Source: Terriglobia bacterium
GTDB lineage: Bacteria; Acidobacteriota; Terriglobia; JAIQFV01
Direction of reading: 5' to 3'
Assembly: GCA_028716525.1 (NCBI GenBank)
Contig: JAQUPQ010000002.1
Span: forward strand, 62,001-126,000
DNA length: 64,000 nucleotides
The notes under the pieces were generated by a model. That model ran no database searches. It was given only the letters and a program-made list of their open reading frames with translations, and was not told the DNA's origin. Each line of letters opens with the position of its first letter. Positions within the stretch are counted from its first letter, which is position 1. Shown piece after piece: positions 6,929 to 9,078 of the stretch. Made by a program: the position numbers and the translations under genes.

Positions 6929-8920
6929 TTAATTGACTGGGGGCTTTTTGGATTCTCGTTCCAAACGATTGTTGATGTCCTTGAGTTCCTCGTAGCTGTA
7001 CTGATCCGCCTGCAAATCCAGATGATAAACCTGGCGGAGATGCAAAATCAGAGCCGCCTTCTTGGCTCCTTCGGCTGACGAGACTTGGGTCCGGGGCTTG
7101 TTACGAACCGGGGCCTCCGGCTTGGCATCCGGCGGGGCGTTGTCACCCGCAGCTTCTTCAGTTTCATCGGCGGAGGCAGCGCTGACATTCTGTCGGAGTG
7201 GCTTCGTTTCTTCGGCCTTGGGTTGCGCCGGAGTCGATGTGGGATCCGAAGTGCTGGTCGCTGGACCGGTAACATTCGCCGGCTTTGAATCGGAGCTTTG
7301 AGACGGCAAAGTGATCGGCGTTCCGGGTGTTTGAGCCTGCTGACTCACGGTTGGATGCGGATTGGCTGCTTCTGCGGCCAGTGGAGTCGGCTGATTGTGT
7401 CGAACGAATGTAATCAGTACGTAAACACCAAAGGCAATCAAAATGGGCACGAAGATATACAGTGCCTTTGTGAACAATTCCAGCGAGAAAAAGCGTTTTC
7501 GTGCTGGCTGCTGACTGTATGCTGCAAATGCCGGGAAAGCCGGCTCCCTATCCCCGACAGCAGAAGGAGTGGAGTCGTAATCCTGGTCATAACCTTCCGA
7601 TAAACCGGACTCCTCCTGGGCATAATCAAAGTCTCCCTGGGGAGGCGCATAGGCCCCGGGATCTGCATCCACCATCCTGTTTGCAGCAGGCGCAGGCCCC
7701 TCCGCGGTGTAATCTACTTCGGGTTCGCTGTAGCTTTGTCCTGGAGTGTATTCCGGAGAGTACTCGGCCTCCCCGGCTGAGAATGCTTTATCGGATGCCA
7801 TCATGGGCTCCGGTTGCACCTCAGCAGGCATTGGCGGAACATCCAACTTTGAATTCGATGGCGTGGTCGTTTCGGAGATTTCCTGAGCCGATGTGGGAAC
7901 CGTCGATGCCTCATGAATAGCGGCCATTGATTCCAACGGTGCCCATCCCATGGAATCAAAATACACTTCAATTCCGAGAGGGTCCGATTCGAGACCGGAG
8001 GTGAAGGATTTCTTCAGTCCCCGCTCTTGAATCTCCGTAACCTGATCAGCGGAACCAATTGCTGTGGCAGGTTGCGGTGTGTTAACGGTCGCTACGGCGC
8101 CCATTTGCGCGGATTCTGTTCCTGATAGGGCTGACACCGGCTTGGCAGAGGACGAAGACGGCACGTTTGAGCGGGCTTTCTCTCGGCCTTGCCAAAGGAG
8201 CTGCGCGGTCTCCTCTAACGATCTTTGAGCATACACAGGACGCTCGACCGTCGGGGCCAAGACTTCCCCGGAAGAAGTCCGCTTCACCGCCCTTTCAGTT
8301 TGAGGTGGTCGCTTTGAAATATCAGGTTCCGTCGGCCTGGCCACCAAGGGTTTCGATTTTCGAATTTCAGGTGTTACCAGGTGTGGCGCCGGACCCGTTC
8401 TCTGAACTGCAGAGGGTCCGCGAGAAGGAGCTGTGGGCATGGCATAGGGCTGTTCACCCAAAGGCGCAAGCAGGGGTTTGTCATAGCGCTTCTCAAGGAT
8501 GGAGACATCCACCTCCGGCAAACCGTGCTTCTTGACTTCCCGCAACAACGCATCCAAAAGCTTCTTGAAACCCATCCACCCCAACTTGACGCGGAACATC
8601 ACCACTTCATCGCTTGCGGGAAGCGGGGAAACTTCGTTGATTCCCAAGAAGGCTCGCAATCCGGCATTGGAACTGAATTCCTGACGCATGGCCTCGCTGG
8701 AAACATCGAAGATGTATTCCATAAGTAAGATTTTGAAAAAGAGCGATGGATCCGCTTTGGAGGAGGACGGCCGGGGGTTATATCGGTTGAAAGCGTTCTT
8801 GGTTATGGCGTGAAAATCACAGGCGCCACCCAAGCGCTCGAAAAATCCCGCCGGCGCGCTAATGCGCACGGCCGGTTCGGGGCGCTGGACACCTCGGTCA
8901 GGTTGTAGCTGAGTATTCAC
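6929..8920 (-). CDS. Membrane protein with transposase-type (DUF772-like) N-terminal domain
   Basis: A 663-residue protein of unknown function. Residues about 23-135 match the architecture of the N-terminal domain of IS5/IS1182-type transposases (DUF772): DPSLFFKILLMEYIF, then SNAGLRAFLGI, then a P-S-D-E/FR segment. No DDE catalytic domain follows. Instead residues about 140-480 are a long, low-complexity Pro/Ser/Glu-rich linker, with one transmembrane helix at about 484-506 (ALYIFVPILIAFGVYVLI). A second disordered Pro/Thr-rich stretch leads to a short folded tail (about 615-663, EELKDINNRLERE). The GTG start has AAGAAGG seven bases upstream and a near-perfect sigma70 promoter, so the gene is expressed deliberately and is not a decaying insertion sequence. 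By inference the N-domain may bind DNA near the membrane. It is monocistronic. Confidence 0.75.
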   Translation of the reverse strand: MNTQLQPDRGVQRPEPAVRISAPAGFFERLGGACDFHAITKNAFNRYNPRPSSSKADPSLFFKILLMEYIFDVSSEAMRQEFSSNAGLRAFLGINEVSPLPASDEVVMFRVKLGWMGFKKLLDALLREVKKHGLPEVDVSILEKRYDKPLLAPLGEQPYAMPTAPSRGPSAVQRTGPAPHLVTPEIRKSKPLVARPTEPDISKRPPQTERAVKRTSSGEVLAPTVERPVYAQRSLEETAQLLWQGREKARSNVPSSSSAKPVSALSGTESAQMGAVATVNTPQPATAIGSADQVTEIQERGLKKSFTSGLESDPLGIEVYFDSMGWAPLESMAAIHEASTVPTSAQEISETTTPSNSKLDVPPMPAEVQPEPMMASDKAFSAGEAEYSPEYTPGQSYSEPEVDYTAEGPAPAANRMVDADPGAYAPPQGDFDYAQEESGLSEGYDQDYDSTPSAVGDREPAFPAFAAYSQQPARKRFFSLELFTKALYIFVPILIAFGVYVLITFVRHNQPTPLAAEAANPHPTVSQQAQTPGTPITLPSQSSDSKPANVTGPATSTSDPTSTPAQPKAEETKPLRQNVSAASADETEEAAGDNAPPDAKPEAPVRNKPRTQVSSAEGAKKAALILHLRQVYHLDLQADQYSYEELKDINNRLERESKKPPVN

Positions 8921-8947
8921 ACAAACCTTCTTTCAAGCGGAACTGCG

Positions 8948-8976
8948 ATCATAAGTACACTAAAACACTTTGTCAA
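8948..8976 (-). promoter_or_regulatory. Strong sigma70 promoter of the transposase-domain membrane protein gene
   Basis: On the minus strand TTGACA (8976-8971) and TATGAT (8953-8948) are separated by exactly 17 bases, and the GTG start lies about 28 bases past the -10. This is the best housekeeping promoter in the window. Confidence 0.75.
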
Positions 8977-9041: not shown

Positions 9042-9078
9042 AAAAAACAAAGCGGGCCCCGTAATTCCGGACCCGCTT
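9042..9078 (-). terminator. Rho-independent terminator of the DsbA-like gene
   Basis: On the minus strand a 7-bp stem AAGCGGG/CCCGCTT, extended by further partial pairing, is followed by TGTTTTTTA. It lies about 55 bases past the stop codon of the thioredoxin gene. Confidence 0.8.

Follow-up and report, generated by a model that had tools for sequence, protein, structure and literature searches.

The question raised by this locus is whether the N-terminal domain of a transposase has been taken over by its host as part of a membrane protein, or whether an insertion sequence is decaying there. It concerns a 663-aa protein encoded in a 64,000-nucleotide stretch of a Terriglobia contig (hereafter the window), for which the original prediction was that a DUF772 domain had been captured into, and maintained in, a single-span membrane protein. 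To our knowledge, transposase domestication is far less documented in bacteria than in eukaryotes, and a search of one literature collection found no paper linking DUF772 to domestication.

Organization of the gene and its neighborhood

The features of the gene are collected in Table 1. Its adjoining genes are ordinary chromosomal ones, encoding a short-chain dehydrogenase, a CCG/4Fe-4S protein, a DsbA-like thioredoxin, an OmpH-like chaperone, and an aldehyde dehydrogenase. A σ70 promoter with 17-base spacing had been proposed to drive the gene, and this site is present at 8976-8948. One site of the TTGACA-17-TATGAT class is expected by chance within the 2.6 kb scanned; both orthologues described below display TTGACA-17-TACCAT, and the −35 element and 17-bp spacing thus recur at a nearly equal distance from the start. 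The hairpin at 9050..9078 was read by eye and is missing from the output of the repeat/hairpin scan, whose loop limit was 8. This promoter, together with the hairpin behind the dsbA-like gene, suggests separate transcription, and the gene is probably transcribed alone.

Table 1. Features of the gene for the 663-aa protein, with positions in the window
Feature	Residues	Positions	Strand	Remarks
Whole gene	663 aa + stop	6929..8920	−	Intact ORF, GTG start; probably monocistronic
σ70-type promoter TTGACA-17-TATGAT		8948..8976	−	Consensus match at 11/12 positions
Ribosome-binding site AAGAAGG		8926..8932	−	5 nt upstream of GTG start
Terminator-like hairpin and T-run		9050..9078	−	Behind upstream dsbA-like gene; read by eye
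Transposase-derived, all-helical N-terminal domain (head)	17-150	8471..8872	−	Profile comparisons; dN/dS 0.075
DUF772 core	56-123	8552..8755	−	Pfam PF05598
Cytoplasmic low-complexity linker	151-476	7493..8470	−	326 residues, acidic; dN/dS about 0.47
Short conserved linker motif ESDPLGIEVYFDS	311-323	7952..7990	−	Shuffle test
Single transmembrane helix	about 485-506	7403..7468	−	Sole hydrophobic peak; ARKRFF on N-terminal side
Predicted periplasmic Pro/Ser/Thr/Ala-rich linker	507-612	7085..7402	−	
Conserved tail	613-663	6932..7084	−	Two helices (~45 aa); dN/dS 0.065

The N-terminal head is related to transposase N-terminal domains

Residues ~23-135 had been read as DUF772-like. The Pfam scan confirmed the domain, with PF05598 (DUF772) matching residues 56-123 (E = 4.1e-5, 23.9 bits versus a gathering cut-off of 23.1), whereas the extent had to be corrected: homology to transposases covers about residues 17-134 and stops where the DDE domain of IS1182/IS5/IS4-type enzymes would start. 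NCBIfam models of IS1182 and IS5 transposases also give weak matches over the DUF772 region. With a Pfam score just 0.8 bits above the cut-off, both orthologues below it (17.9 and 16.1 bits), and a fold search naming no transposase with confidence, the resemblance might have arisen by chance in an unrelated helical domain. However, all three proteins match PF05598 at the same profile positions. When a profile of their heads was compared with one built from five DUF772 proteins in the class (a single pairwise comparison), the match was collinear across 113 columns (probability 96.5%, E = 7e-10). Moreover, several columns that are 87-97% conserved in transposases hold the same residue in the head. 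We therefore consider a chance match very unlikely.

Column conservation was taken from an alignment of the heads with 40 transposase rows. The retained residues are Y47 (90%), P58 (90%), S75 (93%), R89 (87%), and R110 (97%), and the two Arg, which are among the most conserved in transposases, are present in all three proteins. Where transposases have the GRPS loop (residues 52-55; G 97%, R 79%, P 87%), the heads have [SQ]SS[KE]. At the position of the first catalytic Asp, where the alignment is unsure, all three proteins have Glu. The head has a net charge of just +1 to +3, although this is no lower than in three transposase heads (0, −2, and +1).

Given an input of only two sequences, AlphaFold2 modeled the head as all-helical (pLDDT 75, pTM 0.78). 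When this model was searched against PDB, BFVD, and VIA-align, no trustworthy match was found; one IS4 transposase row appeared in BFVD at E = 1.9, and globin-like rows were set aside as typical of small helical bundles. In a phylogenetic tree the heads form a clade near IS1182-like rows, on a stem of 2.62 changes per site. Because support is weak and branches are long, the tree leaves the parent insertion-sequence group unassigned.

A conserved host gene at a fixed locus

The missing catalytic domain, in a class where insertion sequences of the DUF772 kind are common, could also mean that a transposase fragment was accidentally fused to another ORF and is on its way out. As originally predicted, the Pfam scan gave no match to a DDE family along the 663-aa protein, even at E-values as high as 10, and neither inverted nor direct repeats bracketing the gene were found, in line with the predicted lack of inverted repeats and target duplication. 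No nearby insertion-sequence genes were found either. No complete DUF772 transposase was seen in the window's genome; apart from the gene itself, the search gave just one weak match, of 42 aa, that scored under the cut-off.

Full-length orthologues are encoded in both other genomes covered from the GTDB family of the window genome (Terriglobia, Acidobacteriota), namely the draft genomes G297 and G298 (the latter being Terriglobia MAG SRVP_39, record JAIQFY010000026.1), which belong to a different genus; this brings the total to three, all from draft genomes. Both orthologues occupy the same locus, with the same flanking genes and the same promoter layout. As to mobility, there is one copy per genome with the same neighbors in all three, and no DDE fragment lies beside the gene in any of them. 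In these two related genomes (L009:10676-12526 and L010:2287-4139), a zinc/manganese-type ABC transporter pair, i.e. a binding protein and a permease, named by eye, is situated beyond the aldehyde dehydrogenase gene.

As measured on one species pair (G297 versus G298, with bootstrap ranges), dN/dS is 0.075 (0.036-0.128) for the head, 0.12 (0.042-0.273) for the membrane segment, 0.065 (0.010-0.184) for the tail, and about 0.47 for the linkers. Most comparisons involving the window copy are saturated at synonymous sites; over the head they give dN/dS of 0.24-0.28 at dS 1.4-1.6. The head, membrane segment, and tail are thus under purifying selection, whereas the linkers are weakly constrained.

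An insertion sequence in decay is hard to reconcile with the fact that another genus has orthologues at this locus that are intact and full-length, with dN/dS of 0.065-0.12 in the three constrained parts, and with a gene that has neither inverted repeats nor a DDE remnant. Within this sample of three genomes, synteny and dN/dS refute it, and we give it next to no credence. On the same grounds the gene is a domesticated host gene, and the claim of capture and maintenance in a single-span membrane protein is upheld by the syntenic orthologues, the low dN/dS, and the lack of an adjacent DDE fragment. Neither of the two outcomes named beforehand as refuting it, no DUF772 match or a separate DDE fragment beside all homologues, was observed. 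We conclude with high confidence that a transposase N-terminal domain has been domesticated within a bitopic membrane protein of one Terriglobia family. A soil acidobacterial lineage would thus have reused a part of selfish DNA, only the N-terminal domain of a transposase, by joining it to an anchor in the membrane and to a small new domain predicted to be periplasmic.

Linkers, membrane helix, and tail

The long disordered linker previously proposed is seen as a low-complexity region of 326 residues. The conservation of ESDPLGIEVYFDS is reached by 0.002 and 0.006 of shuffles, and this is the sole linker motif beyond shuffles. An LxxxAQLLW motif (residues 231-243, positions 8192-8230, minus strand) seemed conserved, but falls inside the shuffle range.

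The hydrophobicity profile has a single peak, at residues ~485-506, which agrees with the one membrane helix expected. Because basic residues (ARKRFF) are found N-terminal to this helix, an N-in/C-out topology is predicted. A short folded tail had also been expected; two helices are predicted in ~45 aa, and dN/dS is low. No match to the tail was found in PDB sequences or Pfam, and a fold search of the membrane helix plus tail against PDB gave no trustworthy match.

What the head may do

The best explanation overall, to which we give an even chance, is that the domesticated transposase head recognizes a macromolecule, likely DNA, at the membrane. With the loss of the DDE catalytic domain from an IS1182/IS5/IS4-kind transposase, the remaining N-terminal helical domain, presumed to serve end recognition, would have become the head, on the cytoplasmic side, of a bitopic membrane protein. 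While the head would still recognize its ligand at the membrane, the long linker would provide reach and carry a short docking motif (DPLGIE), and the periplasmic two-helix tail may sense, or anchor to, the envelope. DNA is the most likely ligand in view of the transposase origin and the kept arginines, DNA binding by DUF772 being assumed from its position in transposases. That the head binds DNA at the membrane we rate slightly below an even chance. More specifically, an end-recognition domain may have become a protein that is tethered to the membrane, binds DNA sequence-specifically, and couples a signal in the periplasm to transcription or to sites on the chromosome, as a transmembrane regulator or nucleoid tether; we view this version as rather doubtful. 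Nucleoid anchoring and membrane-bound regulation, the two roles originally suggested, are both possible.

A protein-binding role is almost as likely, because the GRPS loop is lost and charge is near-neutral. The domesticated head may be a protein-protein or self-association module, so that the protein would be an envelope or division scaffold linking cytoplasmic and periplasmic partners without contacting DNA. The long stem branch, which indicates that the function of the head may have changed, is consistent with this, as are the docking-type motif conserved in the linker and the conserved tail. In contrast, retention of R110 and R89 in all three proteins argues against it, and we entertain such a scaffold only tentatively.

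Comparison with known systems

The 663-aa protein shares with IS1182/IS5-type transposases the N-terminal helical domain and its conserved Y, P, S, and two Arg. It differs from them in having no DDE domain or terminal repeats, in the lost GRPS loop and the Glu in the first catalytic Asp column, in being encoded by a single-copy gene at a fixed locus, and in the added membrane helix and tail.

One-component membrane regulators of the ToxR/CadC type have a cytoplasmic DNA-binding head of the winged-helix kind, one membrane helix, and a periplasmic domain. The predicted layout of the 663-aa protein is alike (cytoplasmic head, single span, periplasmic domain), but its head is transposase-derived and its cytoplasmic linker is very long and of low complexity. 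No winged-helix head (Trans_reg_C) was found, DUF772 being the sole significant match in the Pfam scan. Bitopic proteins of the RodZ type likewise have a single membrane helix, which connects a periplasmic part to a helical head in the cytoplasm that is related to DNA-binding folds. The layout predicted for the 663-aa protein is the same, whereas head and tail are unrelated, with no sequence relation found, and the genomic setting is different. Given its putative cytoplasmic DNA-binding head and periplasmic domain, the 663-aa protein would work like ToxR/CadC or RodZ.

Like the 663-aa protein, TnpA-REP (RAYT) is described as an insertion-sequence protein that its host has kept. RAYT retains its catalytic domain, whereas the 663-aa protein retains the N-terminal domain only, within a membrane protein. 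TnpA-REP has been called the first domesticated transposase of prokaryotes (PMC8266576). The present gene lends itself well to asking if DUF772 alone binds DNA and how a part of selfish DNA becomes an envelope protein.

Distribution of the gene and of other DUF772 open frames

Outside the family, no credible relative was found with the full-length protein in 297 genomes of the phylum, with the head profile in 399 genomes of the class and 396 of the phylum, or with the tail profile in 299 genomes of the class. The sole find of two contig-database scans was the G298 record. On these samples of genomes (~400 for the class and ~400 for the phylum), the gene appears to be family-restricted. Apart from this gene, the DUF772 open frames of the class that we inspected are either transposases or fragments of them.

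Four genomes of another genus (g224) contain short DUF772 open frames of about 197-240 aa (L057 G494:C22, L059 G521:C26, L020 G644:C48, and L022 G654:C46). These frames diverge from the transposase at one common point before the DDE domain and continue into a common following sequence, SVPAYRKFVASLAEHA; two of the four are near a PIN/VapC-like gene. They may represent either a truncated element that is spreading or another case of domestication.
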